Shown: positions 21,176-34,059 of the stretch, one piece after another
How positions within the stretch are numbered: the stretch's first letter is position 1
How the letters are laid out: each line of letters opens with the position of its first letter
DNA from: Lactobacillus sp. PV034
Lineage (GTDB): Bacteria; Bacillota; Bacilli; Lactobacillales; Lactobacillaceae
DNA length: 64,000 bases
Direction: 5' to 3'
Assembly: GCF_014522305.1 (NCBI RefSeq)
Contig: NZ_CP041982.1
Location: 377,001 to 441,000 of the forward strand
Translations under genes and position numbers: made by a program
Notes under the pieces: model-generated
Told to the model about the DNA's origin: nothing
Database searches by the model: none
What the model saw: the letters and a program-made list of their open reading frames with translations, nothing else

Positions 21176-21548
21176 GCAAGTTTTGAGCAATCGCGGTTAA
21201 CTTATGTTAGCTGAGGAAAGTCCACGCTCGCACGAGCTGCGATGCTCGTAGTGATTGTACTCAGCCCAATAAGCTGGGGGATTTCATCTGAAATCACGGC
21301 GGAGAAAACACTAAATCAGTTAGACATGTGTGAATATCCTTAAAAGTGCCACAGTGACGGAGCAATAGTGGAAACACTATTGGTGGAACGAGGTAAACCC
21401 TGCAAGCGAGCAACCCAAATTTGGTAGGGGCGTCTTATCTATGGAATTGAACTAAAGATAAGATCATATAATGAAGATAGATGGTTGCTGAAAATAGTCA
21501 TTGATCAAGACTATTGGAACAAAACGTGGCTTATAGAAACTTGTTGGT
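21176..21548 (+). ncRNA. rnpB: RNase P RNA, class B
   Basis: Catalytic RNA of RNase P, which matures tRNA 5' ends. The universal core GAGGAAAGTCC occurs about 40 bases in, the 3' part carries GGTAAACCC (P-loop pairing region) and the end AAACTTGT can pair with GCAAGTTT at the 5' end (helix P1). A -10 box precedes it and a strong terminator follows. Ends are set by the P1 pairing and are approximate by a few bases. Confidence 0.95.
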
Positions 21549-24649: not shown

Positions 24650-25012
24650 ATGAAGCGGCATTTTATCTTTTTGGGTGCACCAGGCATTATTTATTATTCA
24701 TGGTTACTTGTAGTTATTTTTGTGGGCGTTAGTTTTGCCTACGAGAGTAATAAAACTATTAGTTTACCAAGTTTGATATTATGTTCACTTTTTGTCATTT
24801 TACTGATTTATACTTGGTTTTTCTCATATACAAAGCGGGTTAAGTCAGAAGAATTTGAATTTAAGTTACCGTATCGTAAAAAATCTAAGATTTCTAAACC
24901 ACAAATAATTTTCCAATGGCATTTTATCCGTACACTCAAAATTAATGATAAGTATCAAAAATATTATGTTATTGAATTTAATAGAAAAAAGGAGTTATCC
25001 AATGGAATCTGA
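24650..25012 (+). CDS. Small two-helix membrane protein, possibly EbsA family
   Basis: 120 residues with two hydrophobic helices (about residues 17-35 and 43-60) and a basic cytoplasmic tail ([10 protein letters not shown]). AGGAGG ribosome site. Size and topology resemble the EbsA-like (pore-forming) proteins annotated in lactobacilli, but I recognise no diagnostic motif, so the family call is tentative. Its last 11 bases overlap the fhs start, indicating co-transcription. Confidence 0.6.
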
Positions 25013-26675
25013 TATTAAAATAGCACAAAAAACTAACGCATTACCTATTACTGAAATCGCAGAAAAAGTAAATTTAAGTTCTGATGATATTGAACTTTAT
25101 GGTAAAGATAAGGCTAAGATTTCTTGGCCAGCAATTAATCGCGTAATGCAAAATGATAAATTGGGTAAATTAATTTTAGTCACTTCAATCTCTCCAACCC
25201 CTGCAGGCGAAGGAAAGTCTACTATTACTATTGGTCTTGGAGATGCATTTAGTAATCAATTAAAGAAAAATACGATGATTGCGCTTAGAGAACCATCTAT
25301 GGGGCCTGTTTTTGGACTAAAGGGTGGAGCCACAGGCGGTGGTTATGCTCAAATTATCCCTATGGAAGATATTAACCTTCACTTTACTGGTGATATGCAT
25401 GCACTTACTAGTGCAATCGATACTTTAGCAGCTTTAGTTGATAACTATATTTATCAAGATAACAGTCTTAAACTTGATCCGGAGCGTCTTTTACTTAAAC
25501 GCGGAATTGACGTAAATGATAGAACTTTGAGAAAGGTTACTATCGGTCAAGGATCTAAATTTAATGGAATTGAGCATGAAGCTAGCTTTGCTATTACTGT
25601 AGCTAATGAATTAATGGCTATTTTATGTTTAGCAACTGATATTAACGATTTGAAGAGAAGAATTGGAAATATGTTAGTTGGTTTTTCAACTGACGATGAA
25701 CCAATTTTTGTTAAAGATCTTGGCTTCCAAGGTGCAATTGCTGCTTTACTATCAACTGCTTTAAAACCAAATCTTGTTCAAACTTTAGAGCACACCCCAG
25801 CTTTAGTTCATGGAGGACCATTTGCTAATATTGCTCATGGTGCTAATTCTGTGATGGCAACTAATTTGGCGCTTCACTTAGGTGACTACGTTTTAACTGA
25901 AGCGGGATTTGGTGCCGATTTAGGTGGACAAAAGTTCATGGACTTTGTTTCCAAGAATCTTGCTAAAAAGCCAGATGCAGTAGCAGTTGTAGCCACAGTA
26001 CGTGCCTTAAAATATCAAGCTGAAAAATCAACTGAGAATTTAGCTAATGAAAATTTAGATGCGCTAGAAAAGGGATTTGCTAACCTTGATCGTCATATGA
26101 AGAATATGGCTAAGTATGGGCTTCCTGTAATGGTTTTAATTAATCAATTTGATACTGATACTCCAGCTGAATTAGCTAAGCTAAAGGAACTAATTGAAAA
26201 TGAAGGCTTTACTTGTGAAGTAGTATCTTACCATGATGATGGTTCTAAGGGTGGAGTAGAAGCTGCCCAAAAATTAGCTGAATTAGCTGATAAGGGTGGC
26301 AATTATCACTCTATTTATGAAGACGATGATGATCTCAAAGTAAAAATTGAAAAGATTGCTAAAAATATTTATGGTGCTGCTGAAATTGAATATTCAGATA
26401 AAGCTGAAGAACAATTAAAGGAAATTAAGGCAATGGGTAAAGATAAGTTGCCCGTAATTATTGCGAAAACTCAAGCTTCATTTACTGATGATAAAAAGCA
26501 ATTAGGAGCACCGACCGGCTTTACTTTGCATGTAAAAGATTTGGCCCTTAAGAATGGAGCTAACTTTGTTGTTGTAGCTACAGGTCATATTTTAGATATG
26601 CCGGGACTACCAAAACATCCTGCGGCCCTTGATATTGATGTTGATAACAATGGTAAGATTTCTGGCCTATTTTAA
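25002..26675 (+). CDS. fhs: Formate-tetrahydrofolate ligase
   Basis: ATP-driven synthesis of 10-formyltetrahydrofolate from formate and THF. 557 residues. The P-loop-like [15 protein letters not shown] lies near residue 65, and [18 protein letters not shown] and the [11 protein letters not shown] loop are family signatures. The start at 25002 is fixed by AAGGAG about six bases before it; the frame is open upstream but that stretch belongs to the preceding gene. The stop shares its last base with the lspA ATG. Confidence 0.96.
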
Positions 26676-27163
26676 TGAAAAACTCTAAAAAGATTTTTTA
26701 TCTCTTAATTTCACTTTTAGCAGTAATTGCTGATCAAGCCTTAAAATTTTATATTGTTAGCAATTTTCATCTTGGCGAAAGTAAGTCATTTATTCCGCAT
26801 TTAATATCTTTTTACTATCTAAGAAATAATGGAGCTGCATGGAATATTTTTCCAGGACAAATGATCTTGTTTTATATAATTTCAATTGTCGCCATTATCG
26901 TAACGCTTTATTATTTGTTAAATCCAAATTATAAAAGTAAAACTTTTAATGTGGGTTTGGCTTTAGTTTTAGGTGGAATAGTTGGAAACTTTATTGATAG
27001 ATTGAGACTACATTACGTAGTTGATATGATCCAGCTTGATTTTATTAATTTTAATATTTTCAATATTGCTGACAGCTGTATTACCATTGGAATAATTTTG
27101 ATTTTTATCTATTTATTATTTATAGAAGGTAAAGATAAAAAGGAAACTGGTACAAGTGAATAA
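26675..27163 (+). CDS. lspA: Lipoprotein signal peptidase
   Basis: Membrane aspartic protease that removes signal peptides of diacylglyceryl prolipoproteins. 162 residues, four predicted helices. Conserved NNGAAWN, and the two catalytic aspartates in GNFIDRL and FNIADS. Starts within the fhs stop (TAATG) and overlaps the next gene by eight bases. lspA followed by an RluD-type gene is conserved from Bacillus to lactobacilli. Confidence 0.96.
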   Translation: MKNSKKIFYLLISLLAVIADQALKFYIVSNFHLGESKSFIPHLISFYYLRNNGAAWNIFPGQMILFYIISIVAIIVTLYYLLNPNYKSKTFNVGLALVLGGIVGNFIDRLRLHYVVDMIQLDFINFNIFNIADSCITIGIILIFIYLLFIEGKDKKETGTSE

Positions 27164-28067
27164 AGAATATGAATTAACCGTAGAAGATGAAAAGGGACGT
27201 TTAGATAAATTTATTTCAAGCAAAATAGATACTCTAAGTAGAACCCAAGTACAAGATCTCATTGCTAAAAAGCATGTTTTAGTAAATAACAAAGAAGTTA
27301 AGGGATCTTATAAGGTCACCCTTGGTGATAGAATTCTTATTACCGTTCCGCCTAAAGAGCCATTAAGTCTTGAACCTGAAGATTTAAACCTGGAAATAGT
27401 TTATGAAGATCAAGATGTTATTGTAGTTAATAAACCCCAAGGAATGGTGGTTCATCCAGCAGCAGGGCATCCAGATCATACTTTAGTAAATGGACTGCTG
27501 TATCACACAAAGAAATTAGCCCAAAGTCCTGAGGGATTTCGCCCGGGAATTGTCCATCGCATCGATAAAGATACGTCTGGTTTGTTAATGGTAGCTAAGA
27601 ATGATCAAGCACGTTTAAGTTTAGAACAACAACTGGCAAGTAAAACTAATAAGCGAGAGTATTTAGCAATAGTTCATGGAAACTTTGATAATACGGCCGG
27701 AGTAATTGATGCTCCTATTGGGAGAAATCCTAATAATCGTAAACAAATGGCTGTTAATCCTAAGGGTAAGCCTGCGCGAACTCATTTTGAAGTTTTGGAA
27801 CAGTTTAAGGGCTATTCTTTAGTTAAGTGTGTGCTTGAAACTGGTAGGACTCACCAAATTAGGGTTCATATGAAGTACATTGGACATCCTTTAGCTGGTG
27901 ATCCTTTGTATGGTCCTAAGAAAACACTTAAAGGAAAAGGACAATTTCTCCATGCTGCAACTCTAGGTTTTGAACAGCCCACAAGTCATCAATGGCTTGA
28001 ATTTTCAGCACCAATACCCTTAATTTTTCAGCAGCAACTTGAAAAATTACGTAGCTTGAGGAGGTAA
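27156..28067 (+). CDS. RluA/RluD-family pseudouridine synthase
   Basis: 303 residues. An N-terminal S4 RNA-binding domain (RLDKFISSKIDTLSRTQVQDLI) precedes the catalytic domain with HRIDKDTSGLLMVAKN, whose aspartate is the nucleophile. Equivalent to B. subtilis YlyB and close to RluD, so large-subunit rRNA is the likely substrate. GTG start. carA starts one base after its stop. Confidence 0.93.
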   Translation: MNKEYELTVEDEKGRLDKFISSKIDTLSRTQVQDLIAKKHVLVNNKEVKGSYKVTLGDRILITVPPKEPLSLEPEDLNLEIVYEDQDVIVVNKPQGMVVHPAAGHPDHTLVNGLLYHTKKLAQSPEGFRPGIVHRIDKDTSGLLMVAKNDQARLSLEQQLASKTNKREYLAIVHGNFDNTAGVIDAPIGRNPNNRKQMAVNPKGKPARTHFEVLEQFKGYSLVKCVLETGRTHQIRVHMKYIGHPLAGDPLYGPKKTLKGKGQFLHAATLGFEQPTSHQWLEFSAPIPLIFQQQLEKLRSLRR

Positions 28068-28068
28068 C

Positions 28069-29124
28069 ATGAAACGCTATTTAATTTTAGAAGATGGGTC
28101 AGCTTTTAGTGGCCATCCGTTTGGCGCTACCACTACTTCTACTGGCGAATTAGCAATTCAAACTTCTAATTTTGGTTATCAAGAAGCAATCTCAGATCCT
28201 GCTAATTTCGGTAAAATTTTAACTTTTACTACTCCCATGATTGGTGGTAGTGGAATTAATCCAATCGATTATGAATCAATCGATCCCAGTGTTCGCGGAA
28301 TCATTGTAAATGATATTGCACGACATATTTCAGCTAGTGCAAGCTTTCAAGACCTCGATCAATTTCTAAAGGAGAAAAGAATTCCTGCAATCTATGGAAT
28401 AGATACTAGAGCAATCGTTAAAAAATTGAAAAAAAAGAGAGCAATCAAAGCTTCCTTGATGGATACAGACGATGATCATGCTTTTGATCAAATCAAAGCA
28501 TTAGTTCTACCTAAGAATCAAACTGCACAAGTTTCTACAACACATGCATACGCAGCACCGAATGTGGGGAAGACAGTTGCCGTCATTGATCTTGGTTTAA
28601 AACATTCTTTATTGCGTTCACTTTCATTACGAAAAATAAATAGTGTAGTCTTGCCATATAATGCTTCCATTTATGACATTACCAATATCAGACCGGATGC
28701 AATTGTTCTTTCAAATGGGCCTAATGATCCCAAAGAATTAGAAAATATCTTAAAACCATTATTAGATAATTTTTATGGAAAATTACCAATCTTAGGAATT
28801 GGTCTGGGCTTTTTATTAATTAGTAGGTATCTAGATTTTGATTTAATTGACTTAATTCCAGCATACAATGGGAGTAATTATCCAATTATTGCTTCAAATA
28901 CCAATAATATTTACCAATCAGCTATTAATTTAGGAAAACTTGTTGATCCTAATAGCATATCCTTATCCTTAAGCGAATTATTTTATGACATTAAATCTAA
29001 TCTTGTTGCAGGTTTTGTTGATAATAAAAACAAGATCTTAACGGCTGCTTTTAATCCTGAAGGATCTCCAGGAAATTTTGATGCGACTGTAATTTATGAT
29101 CGATTTATAGAGATGATGGAGTAA
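28069..29124 (+). CDS. carA: CarA-like protein with degenerate glutaminase site
   Basis: 351 residues, full length for the small subunit of carbamoyl-phosphate synthase. The N-terminal domain is well kept (LEDGSAFSGHPFGA, TGELAIQTSNFGYQEAISDP, YGIDTRA). In the C-terminal class I amidotransferase domain the nucleophile elbow that should read GICLGHQ reads GIGLGFL (Gly245 for Cys), and the catalytic His in GHPE-SPG is Asn329 (FNPEGSPG); only the Glu (331) remains. Glutamine hydrolysis should be impossible. The strong GAGGAGG ribosome site and intact frame argue that it is still translated. Forms a pair with the gene at 29129. Confidence 0.85.
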   Translation: MKRYLILEDGSAFSGHPFGATTTSTGELAIQTSNFGYQEAISDPANFGKILTFTTPMIGGSGINPIDYESIDPSVRGIIVNDIARHISASASFQDLDQFLKEKRIPAIYGIDTRAIVKKLKKKRAIKASLMDTDDDHAFDQIKALVLPKNQTAQVSTTHAYAAPNVGKTVAVIDLGLKHSLLRSLSLRKINSVVLPYNASIYDITNIRPDAIVLSNGPNDPKELENILKPLLDNFYGKLPILGIGLGFLLISRYLDFDLIDLIPAYNGSNYPIIASNTNNIYQSAINLGKLVDPNSISLSLSELFYDIKSNLVAGFVDNKNKILTAAFNPEGSPGNFDATVIYDRFIEMME

Positions 29125-29128
29125 TAGA

Positions 29129-32100
29129 ATGCCACTACATAAAGAAATTAATAAAGTGCTGATTATCGGAGCAGGTCCAAGGGTGGTTGGAGAAGTAATG
29201 GATATGGATATTCTAATTGAACAAGCGCTAGATGCCTTAGTTGAAGAGAATATTCAAGTAGTTTTAGTAAACCCAAATCCTGCAACTATTGAAACTGATC
29301 CGCATAAAAATGTAAAAGTATACCTGGAGCCACTAACTATAACTTTTCTAAAAAGAATTATCCGGATGGAAAAGCCAAATGCTCTTCTTCCAGTCTATGG
29401 TGGCAAACCAGCACTTAAATTAACCAATCAACTTGTTCGTGATGGAATTATTGATGAGATGGATATTGAATTGCTTAATGTTAATAAATTAAGTTTGAAA
29501 ATCCAAGATCATAAAACTTTACACGACTTTTTAGAGGTCAATAACTTACCCGTTGCTAATCAGTGGATGTTAGATAATGATGCAGATACGATTGAGAAAT
29601 TGGCATCTGCGCACTATCCTTTGCTCTTAACAAAGAAACAGAAGTATCGACCTGATCAGCATCATAGTTTAAATAGCTTTGCCGATGTTAAACAATATTT
29701 TGAAAATGAACAAAAGCAAGAGCATTTTGACTGGCATAATTACCTCCTAAATGAAGATCTTTCTTCTTGGGAAGAATTAATTTTTAATGTAATTCGTGAT
29801 AATCATGGTAATTATAATTTCTTTAATAATATGGGAAGTATGGAACCAGTTGGTATCACAGCCAACGACTCGTTATTAGTTAGTCCTATCTTAACCAGAA
29901 ATAATAACCAAATTCAGAAATTACGTAATGCAGTGAAAAAAATAGCCAAACTACTGCATCTCCATGGTACTTTAGTTGTTCATTTTGCTGTTAAACAAGA
30001 AGAAGATAACTTTCTTTATAAGATTCTAATGGTTAAACCTCGTTTAACTGAAACGACTTTATTAGGATACCGAACTGGCATTTACAGTATTGGTTATATA
30101 AATGCCAAAGTTGCCTTAGGTTATAATTTAAATGAAGTGATCGACCCGCAGTCAAAGTTAAACGCGGTTATTGAACCGGTAAAAGATGCTATTGGCGTTA
30201 AATTACCATTCTGGTCTTTTGTTGAATCTGGCTATAATCATTATCACCTTGGAACACAAGAAACTTCAGGAGGAGCGGCTTTAGGAATTGGTCGCAATTT
30301 TGAAACAGCATTTTTAAAAGCTATTCATGCATCTACGAATTTTTCAAATAATAAACGAGTTTGGCAAAAGGAATTCGAAAAAGATAGAGAGAAAATATTA
30401 TTAGATTTAAATCATCCACAAGAAAGTCATTTGATTACTTTACTTGCAGCAATCGCTAATGACATAGATTATCAGACAATCCATGATAATCTTCACATCC
30501 ATCCGATTTTTCTTCAAAAATTTACTCATATTGTGATCTTAATTAAGGAACTGAAGGAAGAAGAATTAACTCCCCATTTATTACTTAAAGTTAAGAAAAA
30601 TGGTTTTTCTAATAAGCTTATTGCATCTCTAACAGATAAAACTGAAAAAGAAATCACTGCGCTCCTTGAAGAAAATAAAATTTATCCGTCCTATTTGGAA
30701 ATTGATGGTACAGCTGGTATTGAATCCCCTAAAGTTAATGCTGTCTACTCAGCGTATGATGTGCAAAATGAAATCGAAGCTATTGATACGCAAAATAAAT
30801 GTCTTATTTTAGGTTTAAAACCATTTCAAGTTTCTCAAAATGAAGAATTTGATTACATGCTTTATCATGCGGCAAAAACTTTAAAAGAAAATGGTATTAG
30901 TCCGATTATCTTGTCCAATAATCCTGAATGTATTTCAAATTCGTATGATGTCTGTGACCGTATTTACTTTGACCCGATCACATTAGAAAACATTTTAGCA
31001 ATTGCAAGAAAAGAAAATATCCATTGTGTACTTACACAATTTTCAGGGAAACAGGTAAATCAATATCGGCAGCGTTTATTAGATCATAACATTCAAATTT
31101 TGGGTCAAGAAAATCTTTCTGAAATGTTACATCAACCATTTACTACACTTTTTGAAGCTAAAAACTTTAAGCATGTACCATTCTTATTGAGCAAAAATGA
31201 AAAAGAAATTCTTGATTTCGCCGATAAGTTTCATTTTCCAGTATTAATTGGGGGAATAAATAATCATAAAAAGAGTAAATCTGCTGTAGTTTTTGATTTA
31301 CCGGCTTTAAAACGTTATATATCAGAAAACGAATTAGACCAAATTTCAATTTCTAAATTTATTGAAGGCGAGAAGTATGAGGTTACAGCTCTTTCAGATG
31401 GTAATAAAGTGACAATCCCTGGAATAATCGAACATTTTGAACAAACTGGTTCGCATGCTTCTGATTCAATTGCTGTCTTTAAGCCACAAAATTTAACTCC
31501 TCACAGGGAGCGGCGATTAAAAGATGCAGCTCTCACGATTGCTCATAAATTACATCTAAAAGGGCCAATTAATTTACACTTTTTATTTAAAGATGATGAG
31601 CTTTATTTACTTCAGGCTAAAACTTATGCAGGTCATAACGTTGCCTTTTTAAGTAAATCTTTACATACAAACATTGTGAAATATGGCACTGAACTTTTAC
31701 TAGGAAAAACATTAAGTGAACTTAATCTCCAAGAAGACAGTTGGTCAACAGATAGTTCGTTAATTCATATCAAAATGCCTGTTTTCTCTTTACTTCGATA
31801 TCAAAGTGAAAATACTTTCGATTCAAAAATGAAAACATCAGGAAGTGTCATTGGAAGTGCAAAAACGCTTCCCACAGCACTATATAAAGGATATGAAGCA
31901 AGTGATTTAATTATTCCTTCTTATGGTACTGTCTTTATTTCAGTACGTGATCAAGATAAGGAGAAAGCCATTAAATTGGCAAGACGCTTGCATAAGTTAG
32001 GCTTTAATCTTTTAGCTACTGAAGGAACCGCGACCACCTTAGCCGAAGAGGGAATTACAACTGGTATTAGTGCCAAAATTCAAGAAGGAAATCAGAGTTT

Positions 32101-32296
32101 ACTTGAAAAAATTGTGCAGCATAAAATTAATATGGTAATCAATGTTAAGGATCTTTCCGATTCAGCAAGTCATGATGCAATATTAATTCAGGATGCTGCC
32201 TTGAGCACTCATATTCCTGTCTTTTCTACCATGCAATCTATCGAAGATATAGTATTGGTATTAGAAACAATGGCGATGTCAACACAACCTTTGTAA
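29129..32296 (+). CDS. carB: CarB-like protein with both ATP sites degenerate
   Basis: 1055 residues, full length and co-linear with the large subunit of carbamoyl-phosphate synthase. The N-terminus (LIIGAGPRVVGE, VLVNPNPATIETDP) and the C-terminal MGS-like regulatory domain (VFISVRDQDKEKAIKLARRL, LLATEGTATTLAEEGI) are recognisable. The first ATP-grasp unit lacks the glycine loop (Thr168 where Arg169 should be) and has Met301 and Lys303 for the metal-binding Glu and Asn. The second has Gly708 for Arg715, and Gln829, Lys831 and Tyr833 for Glu, Asn and Arg. Both active sites look dead. Last gene of the run starting at 24650, with its own ribosome site. Confidence 0.83.
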   Translation: MPLHKEINKVLIIGAGPRVVGEVMDMDILIEQALDALVEENIQVVLVNPNPATIETDPHKNVKVYLEPLTITFLKRIIRMEKPNALLPVYGGKPALKLTNQLVRDGIIDEMDIELLNVNKLSLKIQDHKTLHDFLEVNNLPVANQWMLDNDADTIEKLASAHYPLLLTKKQKYRPDQHHSLNSFADVKQYFENEQKQEHFDWHNYLLNEDLSSWEELIFNVIRDNHGNYNFFNNMGSMEPVGITANDSLLVSPILTRNNNQIQKLRNAVKKIAKLLHLHGTLVVHFAVKQEEDNFLYKILMVKPRLTETTLLGYRTGIYSIGYINAKVALGYNLNEVIDPQSKLNAVIEPVKDAIGVKLPFWSFVESGYNHYHLGTQETSGGAALGIGRNFETAFLKAIHASTNFSNNKRVWQKEFEKDREKILLDLNHPQESHLITLLAAIANDIDYQTIHDNLHIHPIFLQKFTHIVILIKELKEEELTPHLLLKVKKNGFSNKLIASLTDKTEKEITALLEENKIYPSYLEIDGTAGIESPKVNAVYSAYDVQNEIEAIDTQNKCLILGLKPFQVSQNEEFDYMLYHAAKTLKENGISPIILSNNPECISNSYDVCDRIYFDPITLENILAIARKENIHCVLTQFSGKQVNQYRQRLLDHNIQILGQENLSEMLHQPFTTLFEAKNFKHVPFLLSKNEKEILDFADKFHFPVLIGGINNHKKSKSAVVFDLPALKRYISENELDQISISKFIEGEKYEVTALSDGNKVTIPGIIEHFEQTGSHASDSIAVFKPQNLTPHRERRLKDAALTIAHKLHLKGPINLHFLFKDDELYLLQAKTYAGHNVAFLSKSLHTNIVKYGTELLLGKTLSELNLQEDSWSTDSSLIHIKMPVFSLLRYQSENTFDSKMKTSGSVIGSAKTLPTALYKGYEASDLIIPSYGTVFISVRDQDKEKAIKLARRLHKLGFNLLATEGTATTLAEEGITTGISAKIQEGNQSLLEKIVQHKINMVINVKDLSDSASHDAILIQDAALSTHIPVFSTMQSIEDIVLVLETMAMSTQPL

Positions 32297-32330: not shown

Positions 32331-32371
32331 AAATAACCTAGCTATCTTATCGATAGCTAGGTTATTTTTAT
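32331..32371. terminator. Terminator between carB and rqcH
   Basis: AAATAACCTAGCTATC (32331-32346) pairs with its complement at 32352-32367; A and T tracts allow use from both the carB and the rqcH side. Confidence 0.85.
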
Positions 32372-34059
32372 TTTATTCTTTTTTTCAAAATTGTTTCTTC
32401 ATCAGGTGTTACTTGAATAGATTTTTGTCCTGTATAAATTACAAAGCCTGGTTTAGCACCGTTAGGCTTTTTAATTCGTTTAACTTGAATGTAGTCAACC
32501 GGGACATGAGCAGAATGTTTAGCCTTAGAATAGTAAGCTGCAATTTCTGCTGCCTCTCTAATATCTGTTTCACTGGGATTATCAGACTGGAGAATGACAT
32601 GAGACCCTGGAATATTTTTAACATGGAACCAATAATCCTTTTTATCAGCCTTTTTAAGAGTTAACCAGTCATTTTGATAATTATTTTTACCAACTAAAAC
32701 TGTTTTACCATCACTTAGTTTAAATGTATTGAGTGATTTTTCCGTTATCTTCTTTTTACGACGATGAGAGGTTTGCTGCTTTAAATAACCTTGGTTAGTC
32801 AACTCATCAATGATGGCATCAATATCTTGGGGATCTGCATTATCAATTGCTGTTTGAATTGAATCAAAATAATCTAAATTCTCTTTCGTAATTCTTAATT
32901 GCTCATTTATATGCTTAATCGAATTACGTAGTTTTTGATACCGGGTAAAGTATTTTTGAGCATTTCGAGCAGGTGAGAGAGCAACATCTAATTTAATCTT
33001 TAAGTCTTTATTATTTTCATAGTAATTAGGCAAGGTGATTTCTTGCATACCTGGTTTGACTTGATGAAGATAAGTATTTAATAGTTCTCCTTTAATGCGG
33101 TAACTTTCTGAATTTTCAGCTCGATCTAACTCTTGATTGAGTTTAATTATTTTCTTTTCTAATTTTTTTCTTTCATTAGAAACAATATTTTCAATACGTT
33201 TTGCTTTTTGACGGACCCATTCCCGTTTTGCTTGTTCTTGGTAAAAATCTTCCAAAGCCTCATTCACATTGGTATTAGAGGAAATAAGTTGAAGATCTAA
33301 ATGATAGGGAAGATAAATGAAAAAACGATCCTTATGTTTCTGTGTTTGAAAGACGTAACCCTTCGGATGATCAAACTGGTCAAAAAATGTTTTTAACGAA
33401 GAATAAGAATAATCATCTTCAAGATAACCAGTAAATTCTTTGCGGTCATCTCCATCTAAACCGTTAAAACGTTTAGCGAGATCAATTGGTTCAGGGTAAG
33501 TTTGCTTAAGCTGATTAAATTCTTCTTCAGTAAGCTTTAACCCGTTTATACCCTCAGTTAGTGGAGGCAATTCGTACTTGGCATGAGGTAATAATAAGCG
33601 CGCTCTATTTTCATCAGGGTTAATTCTTTTCAAAAGGTCAATAATTTTATTATCAGTTGCATTATAAAGAATTACATTGCTATGTCGTCCCATCAATTCA
33701 ACTGATAGAATTAATTGCATTTCATCGCCTAGTTCATTACGGTTGGAAAAATAAAAATTTACTATGCGCTCAACTCCAACTTGTTCAATTTTTTGTAAAA
33801 TTGAGCCTTCCAAGTATTTGCGTAATACCATTACAAAAGTTGGTGCAACGTCAGGATTAACGATTGTTTCAGTAGTTAAATAAAAACGTGGAGTTTGAGC
33901 ATTTGCCGAAATTAAAAGTTTCTTATTTAGTCTATCTTTTCTAAAATTTAAGATTAAATCTTGCTCAAAAGGTTGGTAAATCTTAGTTAACTTTCCCTTT
34001 TCTAAAGTAGGAGAGAGACTAGTGAGTAAACTATGAATAAATAAACCATCAAAAGCCAT
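32368..34059 (-). CDS. rqcH: RqcH/NFACT ribosome quality control protein (FbpA family)
   Basis: Binds stalled 50S subunits carrying peptidyl-tRNA and directs C-terminal alanine tailing; the family was first called fibronectin-binding protein. 563 residues: NFACT-N domain (MAFDGLFIHSLLTSL, MGRHSNVIL), helix-hairpin-helix region, long coiled coil (about 280-420), and the C-terminal NFACT-R domain (WLTLKKADKKDYWFHVKNIPGSHVIL, with VPVDYIQVKRIKKPNGAKPGFV). AGGTGA ribosome site. In Bacillus this gene also lies downstream of the pyr cluster. Confidence 0.93.
   Translation of the reverse strand: MAFDGLFIHSLLTSLSPTLEKGKLTKIYQPFEQDLILNFRKDRLNKKLLISANAQTPRFYLTTETIVNPDVAPTFVMVLRKYLEGSILQKIEQVGVERIVNFYFSNRNELGDEMQLILSVELMGRHSNVILYNATDNKIIDLLKRINPDENRARLLLPHAKYELPPLTEGINGLKLTEEEFNQLKQTYPEPIDLAKRFNGLDGDDRKEFTGYLEDDYSYSSLKTFFDQFDHPKGYVFQTQKHKDRFFIYLPYHLDLQLISSNTNVNEALEDFYQEQAKREWVRQKAKRIENIVSNERKKLEKKIIKLNQELDRAENSESYRIKGELLNTYLHQVKPGMQEITLPNYYENNKDLKIKLDVALSPARNAQKYFTRYQKLRNSIKHINEQLRITKENLDYFDSIQTAIDNADPQDIDAIIDELTNQGYLKQQTSHRRKKKITEKSLNTFKLSDGKTVLVGKNNYQNDWLTLKKADKKDYWFHVKNIPGSHVILQSDNPSETDIREAAEIAAYYSKAKHSAHVPVDYIQVKRIKKPNGAKPGFVIYTGQKSIQVTPDEETILKKRIK

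Follow-up and report, generated by a model that had tools for sequence, protein, structure and literature searches.

The locus described here raises the question of why a carbamoyl phosphate synthase (CPS) would be kept after all three of its active sites have been altered. It lies in a stretch of 64,000 nucleotides of Lactobacillus sp. PV034 (contig NZ_CP041982.1), referred to below as the window, and the genome of the window is designated G000. The two genes in question stand next to each other on the forward strand: carA' (28069..29124) encodes a CarA homologue with the Pfam domains PF00988 and PF00117, and carB' (29129..32296) encodes a full-length CarB homologue in which both ATP-grasp sites are altered. 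It is highly probable that the pair is a conserved CPS pseudoenzyme. That the whole complex is kept for a non-catalytic role, probably ligand sensing or scaffolding, is moderately favoured as the best explanation, and the particular ligand-sensing mechanism proposed below, which was built from sequence, is offered as tentative.

The 1055-residue CarB' shares 26% identity with E. coli CarB, in agreement with a first-pass annotation that had described this open reading frame (ORF) as a full-length CarB homologue with two dead ATP-grasp sites and a preserved regulatory domain. In the first ATP-grasp site, R169 of the E. coli protein is replaced by Thr168 (codon 29630..29632), and the metal ligands E299 and N301 are replaced by Met301 and Lys303 (codons within 30029..30037). 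In the second site, R715 has become Gly708 (31250..31252), and the metal ligands E841 and N843 have become Gln829 and Lys831 (31613..31621). Neither site retains the residues of a functional CPS, and the replacements that had been named for the two synthetase units all reappear in the residue table, where R129 and R675 of CarB were given no weight of their own because the alignments disagree there. The glutaminase of CarA' is also dead, as the nucleophile Cys269 is replaced by Gly245 (28801..28803) and the catalytic His353 by Asn329 (29053..29055), and a glutamine-dependent CPS carries Cys and His at these positions. The comparison of a predicted CarB' model with solved CPS structures reveals that the CarB fold is kept over the whole length, and the C-terminal MGS-like effector domain, likewise recognised earlier, is matched by Pfam at residues 947–1032 (31967..32224). 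The fold and the MGS domain that characterise a CPS large subunit are thus both present. The cut-offs of TIGR01369 and TIGR01368 are not reached by the two proteins.

A search among 60 relatives found a divergent CarB in each of the 36 other genomes of the same genus, with 47–80% identity to the query, so that the genus set comprises 37 genomes; the closest named relative is L. rodentium, with a CarB' identity of 80%. Full-length copies of the pair occur in 34 of the 37 genomes, and the partial CarB' matches in G001 and G031 come from fragmented assemblies of 90 and 190 contigs. Many of these genomes also carry a true CarB, with identities of about 28–30% to the query and about 50% to the E. 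coli protein. In a table of 34 pseudo-type CarB and 35 pseudo-type CarA sequences of the genus (E. coli numbering), R169, R715, E841, and N843 of CarB are altered in all 34, and C269 and H353 of CarA in all 35. The changes in the second site are uniform, with R715G, G722K, D753S, E761K, Q829H, E841Q, N843K, R845Y, and R848H found in 34/34 CarB', as are C269G and H353N in 35/35 CarA'; the first ATP site is altered yet variable. The table also includes 31 other CPS pairs, of which 30 or all 31 have the E. coli residue at each of those positions, the sole deviating row being L067. Active-site conservation across orthologues, which the first-pass annotation had proposed as a check, yields replacements in every tabulated genus sequence, and the identical changes in relatives rule out a local artefact or strain-specific decay.

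The uniformity of the second site was compared with that of its surroundings in 35 sequences. Nine of the 11 changed second-site positions carry one identical new residue, against a background of 50 among the 109 domain positions at which an invariant residue of true CarB has changed in CarB' (hypergeometric P 0.013). Other residues have been preserved: K891, S948, K954, T974, T977, K993, and N1015 keep the E. coli residue in 34/34 genus CarB', and H781, E783, H788, D791, E215, and R303 are retained in the same 34. In CarA', further residues that we take to belong to the glutaminase pocket are changed besides the Cys and His, namely S47 and Q273 in 35/35 sequences and G313 in 33/35, and glutamine sensing by CarA' is disfavoured because these pocket residues are also changed.

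Selection on the two genes was assessed by the Nei–Gojobori ratio of nonsynonymous to synonymous substitution rates (dN/dS) in 18 genome pairs of the genus and 13 pairs of other genera. Wherever it could be computed within the genus, dN/dS was at most 0.080 for CarA' and at most 0.081 for CarB', with dS above 1 or saturated in many pairs; the comparison of the window with L. rodentium gives 0.059 for CarA' and 0.081 for CarB'. The computable values among the pairs of other genera range from 0.008 to 0.130 for CarA' and from 0.022 to 0.275 for CarB'. The ratio for CarA' is near that of true CarA. These values rule out relaxed selection, with two caveats: dS is above 1 or saturated in many pairs, and the rate of change is higher in CarB' than in the true protein. 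The pattern named in the first-pass annotation as speaking against a pseudoenzyme, a dN/dS near 1 with frameshifts in relatives, is not what is observed, the genus ratios being no higher than 0.081 and one relative, G020, being frameshifted. The pair is accordingly an enzyme homologue without catalytic residues that is maintained by selection, as a pseudoenzyme is. Mean pairwise identities in 20 genomes carrying both pairs (dead versus true) amount to 81% versus 80% for the CarA N-domain, 69% versus 85% for the CarA GATase domain, 72% versus 77% for the MGS domain, 66% versus 86% for the second ATP-grasp domain, and 58% versus 92% for the first. In the CarA N-domain and the MGS domain, conservation is thus close to that of the enzyme, unlike in the other parts.

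The genome of the window (1.58 Mb in one contig, 99.58% complete) offers little use for carbamoyl phosphate. It contains no CarB other than CarB', and searches for the aspartate carbamoyltransferase (ATC) family (even at E 0.001), PyrR (E 1e-10), and UraA (E 1e-20) returned no match. The same ATC search finds the family in 14/14 control genomes; in other genomes it also lists weaker matches below the cut-off, taken as ornithine-carbamoyltransferase-like. The lack of an ATC-family match argues against a use for carbamoyl phosphate in G000. G008 gives the same negatives for PyrB, PyrR, and UraA, and its single CarB match is the dead one; L. rodentium likewise shows no PyrB, PyrR, UraA, or true CarB. 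An obligatory partnership of the pair with PyrR, UraA, or a true CPS is ruled out by G000 and G008, in neither of which any of the three was detected. The proposal that the protein is a pseudoenzyme is thus supported by catalytic residues changed throughout the genus, by purifying selection, and by the absence of an ATC-family match in its own genome.

The position of the pair points to its ancestry. In 20 kb stretches around CPS genes from other families and some Lactobacillaceae genera (n = 20), 17 have the intact order (fhs, lspA) rluD-pyrR-(uraA)-pyrB-pyrC-carA-carB-(pyrK)-(pyrD)-pyrF-pyrE-...-rqcH; rluD precedes the operon in 16, rqcH is visible within the stretch in 12, and the gene families were checked at two of these loci. 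The CPS residues are complete in 16 of the 17, and the remaining locus, L183, was not tabulated. The other three stretches are L185, a complete operon with a dead CPS; L194 from genome G092, which is half-way; and L196, whose true CPS is accompanied by pyrB, pyrC, pyrK, and pyrD at a site apart from rluD and rqcH. The usual order at dead loci is rluD-(pyrR)-(uraA)-carA'-carB'-rqcH, with the biosynthetic genes gone, and the locus of the window, rluD-carA'-carB'-rqcH, occupies the ancestral place between rluD and rqcH without pyrR and uraA. Judged by gene order, carA'-carB' is at the ancestral pyr-operon position, from which the pathway genes left and at which carA-carB stayed. Among the 51 dead loci of the family survey described next, rluD or rqcH is found in 48, pyrR or uraA in 44, pyrR in 43, and uraA in eight; L072, L127, and L137 have neither rluD nor rqcH in the stretch, and L137 still has pyrF and pyrE. 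The PyrR RNA element occurs at 5/25 loci scanned, the window included in the scan (L071, L072, L080, L198, and L199), a count that is a lower bound because some stretches end before the leader. The window itself shows no match to this element (RF00515) at the gathering score and has no pyrR at the locus; the element or the gene is present at some loci of other genera.

The survey of CarA loci covered 61 genomes in 40 genera of the family; L003, from the same genome as L002, and L176, which is the window again, were dropped from the counts, and L175, a CarA fragment of G079, was left out. A CarA with Cys269 replaced by Gly was found in 51/61 genomes and 33/40 genera, the genomes without it being G070, G071, G084, G088, G089, G090, G092, G108, G109, and G118. 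Every tabulated CarA without the Cys has Gly in its place, and all four Gly codons are used. A Cys-bearing CarA accompanies the dead pair in 31 of the 51 genomes, and none was seen in the other 20, among which G079 is uncertain because its CarA is a fragment. Where the neighbouring CarA has both Cys and His, CarB carries 10/10 first-site and 12/12 second-site key residues; CarB of dead pairs has 2–10 of the 10 and 0–7 of the 12, and the second-site residues differ between lineages. CarB' is full length in 7/33 genera and 643–901 residues long in the other 26, where 0–2 of the 12 second-site residues are left, and the mean pLDDT (predicted local distance difference test) of a model of the shortened form, P0001, is 76.2. 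The common core across these 26 genera is CarA' with the first half of CarB'. Five CarA' positions within 140–149 (E. coli numbers) are identical in 84/84 dead CarA', a comparison in which L067 and L137 were left out of the dead class. Public matches to the long type include L. hominis, L. colini, L. taiwanensis, L. crispatus, and others, named CPS large subunit; among the 120 best hits of the shortened type are Secundilactobacillus, Levilactobacillus, Lentilactobacillus, Apilactobacillus, and Philodulcilactobacillus, named CPS, ATP-grasp, or ATP-binding proteins. As separate observations, L090 and L153 (genus g39) have a half-dead CPS with 10/10 first-site and 0/12 second-site residues and a dead glutaminase, and at L146 (G088) a CarB with complete catalytic residues is split into ORFs of 853 and 207 residues, which detaches the MGS domain.

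Several lineages bear on whether the conversion happened once or repeatedly. Among the genomes examined in genus g29, five are dead (G400, G416, G424, G431, and G439) and seven intact (G070, G108, G139, G165, G269, G326, and G408). Genus g51 has six intact genomes and the half-way G092 (L125/L194), whose CarA keeps the Cys with His353 changed to Leu, whose CarB has 6/10 first-site and 3/12 second-site residues, and from whose locus pyrB to pyrE are gone; E761K, N843K, and R845Y in this CarB are identical to changes in the genus of the window. In genus g40, five intact genomes were examined, and G081 has a shortened dead pair plus an intact one. In another Lactobacillales family (f2), G045 (L067, G045:C1:424400-432400; L185) holds a dead CPS within an otherwise complete pyr operon, with C269G and H353N in CarA and altered CarB sites, and no further CarB match was found in G045. 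The CarA tree, thinned to 134 rows, unites 68/70 dead rows with an SH-aLRT support of 88, requires three state changes, and has long branches. The tree of the neighbouring gene product RqcH, from which rows below 350 residues were left out, needs five changes, two of them forced by well-supported branches; the thinned set (rows below 330 residues left out) needs four, two of them forced, and rejects a single dead clade by the approximately unbiased (AU) test (p 8.4e-05), with the reservation that its 34 dead and nine intact rows were chosen after the first RqcH tree and that the test presumes a group named beforehand. Long branches or cassette transfer between lineages could reconcile the two trees. 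Repeated conversion appears to be the best fit to the gene order and genus data, and lateral transfer of the cassette is also possible. A broader proposal, on which the chances seem evenly divided, is that the native pyr-operon CPS of Lactobacillaceae has a second, catalysis-independent function, for which it was kept repeatedly as a dead complex after loss or relocation of the pathway, with a Gly in place of the nucleophile Cys in every completed conversion and with reshaped ATP/Mg pockets; one non-catalytic role would then lie behind several independent conversions, including that of L067.

A dead pair that is nevertheless kept suggests a second job that does not need catalysis. In the proposed mechanism, CarA' and CarB' would still assemble as CarA and CarB do, and the complex would no longer make carbamoyl phosphate. 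An effector resembling uridine or inosine monophosphate (UMP or IMP) would bind to the MGS domain, and a nucleotide or phosphate might occupy the second ATP pocket, where fixed Lys, Gln, Tyr, and His stand in for the metal ligands and glycine loop; the ligand state would then be passed on to a partner. From its residues, the MGS pocket of the genus looks usable, and the rebuilt second pocket would be suited to an anion or nucleotide bound without metal. Since other genera keep pyrR (43/51 loci) and sometimes uraA (8/51) beside the dead pair, a part in pyrimidine homeostasis is proposed for the complex, either regulatory or as a scaffold.

Several findings weigh against this explanation. Little or nothing of the MGS domain is left in the shortened CarB' of 26/33 genera (0–28 of 113 MGS positions filled), so that MGS sensing is not the one role common to all, an effector role of this domain would be lineage-specific at best, and one molecular mechanism shared by every genus would be conjectural, the core of these 26 being CarA' and the first CarB' half. 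Within the MGS domain of the window, T1017 is changed to Lys. CarB' evolves faster than the enzyme, with a dN/dS often 2–3 times that of true CarB (e.g., 0.073 versus 0.028), still far below 1, and an overall mean identity of 62% versus 86% in the same genomes. The first site drifts, as one of its eight changed positions is fixed against a background of 28/151, and the second-site fixation test is marginal and was devised after the pattern had been seen. In G020 (L058), carB' is frameshifted near the MGS domain and C-terminus into ORFs of 966 and 99 residues, the single clear frameshift among the 37 genus genomes. NCBIfam models NF003671 and NF009475 score both proteins above the cut-off as CPS subunits, and neither PyrR nor UraA is an obligatory partner, because G000 and G008 keep the pair without either. 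The phrase "nucleotide sensor or scaffold" of the first-pass annotation is a fair working hypothesis in the light of the MGS residues kept in the genus, and MGS sensing as the role common to all genera does not stand.

A special case of the pseudoenzyme explanation, in which the pair relays an inorganic carbon, glutamine, or nucleotide signal to PyrR, is unlikely. It would account for pyrR at 43/51 dead survey loci and for the PyrR RNA elements at five of the 25 scanned, and PyrR2 of L. plantarum has been reported to respond to inorganic carbon (cited in PMC3582564). Against it, three genomes that are at least 99% complete (G000, G003, and G008) have the pair and no PyrR at E 1e-10, and the identity of L. 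plantarum pyrR2 as the copy beside a dead pair is putative.

A neofunctionalised enzyme, whose second ATP-grasp pocket catalyses a different and perhaps metal-independent reaction, is improbable. The identity of nine of the 11 changed second-site positions in 35/35 sequences, the retention of E215, R303, H781, E783, H788, and D791, and a modelled fold kept along the whole length are what such an enzyme might display; both second-site metal ligands are now Gln and Lys, however, and the shortening of CarB' to 0–2 second-site residues in 26/33 genera and the variation of these residues among lineages also speak against it. Decay toward loss, with the pair retained through its operon with lspA and rluD, is very improbable: drift of the first ATP site, the G020 frameshift, the shortened forms in other genera, and the faster change of CarB' than of true CarB fit a relic, whereas the low genus dN/dS, the full length in 34/37 genomes, the departure of pyrB, pyrC, pyrF, and pyrE while carA-carB stayed, and the new residues fixed in the second pocket do not. 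That the pair is still a low-activity CPS working through unusual residues, as the two NCBIfam equivalog models and the full-length CarB fold might be taken to imply, is hardly credible given that both metal-ligand pairs and the catalytic Cys and His of the glutaminase are lost, that G000 yields no ATC-family match at E 0.001, and that 31/51 dead-pair genomes also have a Cys-bearing CarA.

In the window, fhs, lspA, and rluD (24945..28067, forward strand; rluD assigned by domains, and the three names being a reading of the sequence) overlap one another, and rluD, an RNA-modification gene, ends one base before carA'. A Shine–Dalgarno-like AGGAGG (28059..28064) precedes carA', and fhs-lspA-rluD-carA'-carB' are likely to be on one transcript. 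Downstream of carB', a terminator-like site with a 16-bp stem and a T-rich tail (32331..32367) abuts the convergent rqcH of the NFACT family (32368..34059, reverse strand), the right-hand landmark of the ancestral pyr locus; five such sites were found versus 4.8 expected by shuffling, and this one has the longest stem. A PADLOC scan for defence systems was empty at E 0.001, and a defence role was dropped on that ground. Elsewhere, the window encodes a 1380-residue YSIRK surface protein with mucin-binding domains PF17965 and PF17966 (48757..52899) and a class B bacterial RNase P RNA (21179..21538; Rfam RF00011, 322 bits).

CPS is a textbook enzyme, and since many public records name these proteins CPS, metabolic models may wrongly assign this reaction to lactobacilli. 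Independent conversions, if that is what occurred, would mean that a second job belongs to CPS itself, and in the dead pair no loss of carbamoyl phosphate masks that job. Among the papers listed in searches of the open-licence literature for CPS pseudoenzymes, CPS paralogues in Lactobacillus, inactive or moonlighting CPS, and ATP-grasp pseudoenzymes, none matched the pair; a CPS that selection maintains across a family despite changes in all three active sites may be new relative to that literature. Proteomics leads in other species (PMC6854853 and PMC9963975) do not tell, in the parts of these articles available, which CPS copy is meant.

Among known systems, PyrR2 of L. plantarum is described as an inorganic-carbon regulator (PMC3582564, citing Arsene-Ploetze et al. 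2006). A PyrR homologue similarly adjoins the dead pair in many Lactobacillaceae genera; some genomes, in contrast, have the pair without PyrR, and the link between PyrR2 and the pair is putative. Compared with CarAB/PyrAA-PyrAB (E. coli 1a9x), the pair has lost the glutaminase nucleophile and His, both of its ATP/Mg sites are altered, its second pocket has been re-fixed, and its host has no detectable carbamoyltransferase. The ammonia-dependent CPS1 has lost the glutaminase Cys and has working ATP-grasp sites; like CPS1 (5dot), the pair retains a dead glutaminase domain with a CarB-like part, and unlike it, both ATP-grasp sites are altered. Pseudokinases such as ILK are pseudoenzymes with a lysine near the former metal site. 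The pair differs from them in its ATP-grasp/CPS fold, its two altered subunits, its two altered ATP sites, and its putative ligand binding, and it resembles them in a fold that has been kept, metal ligands that have been replaced, and purifying selection.

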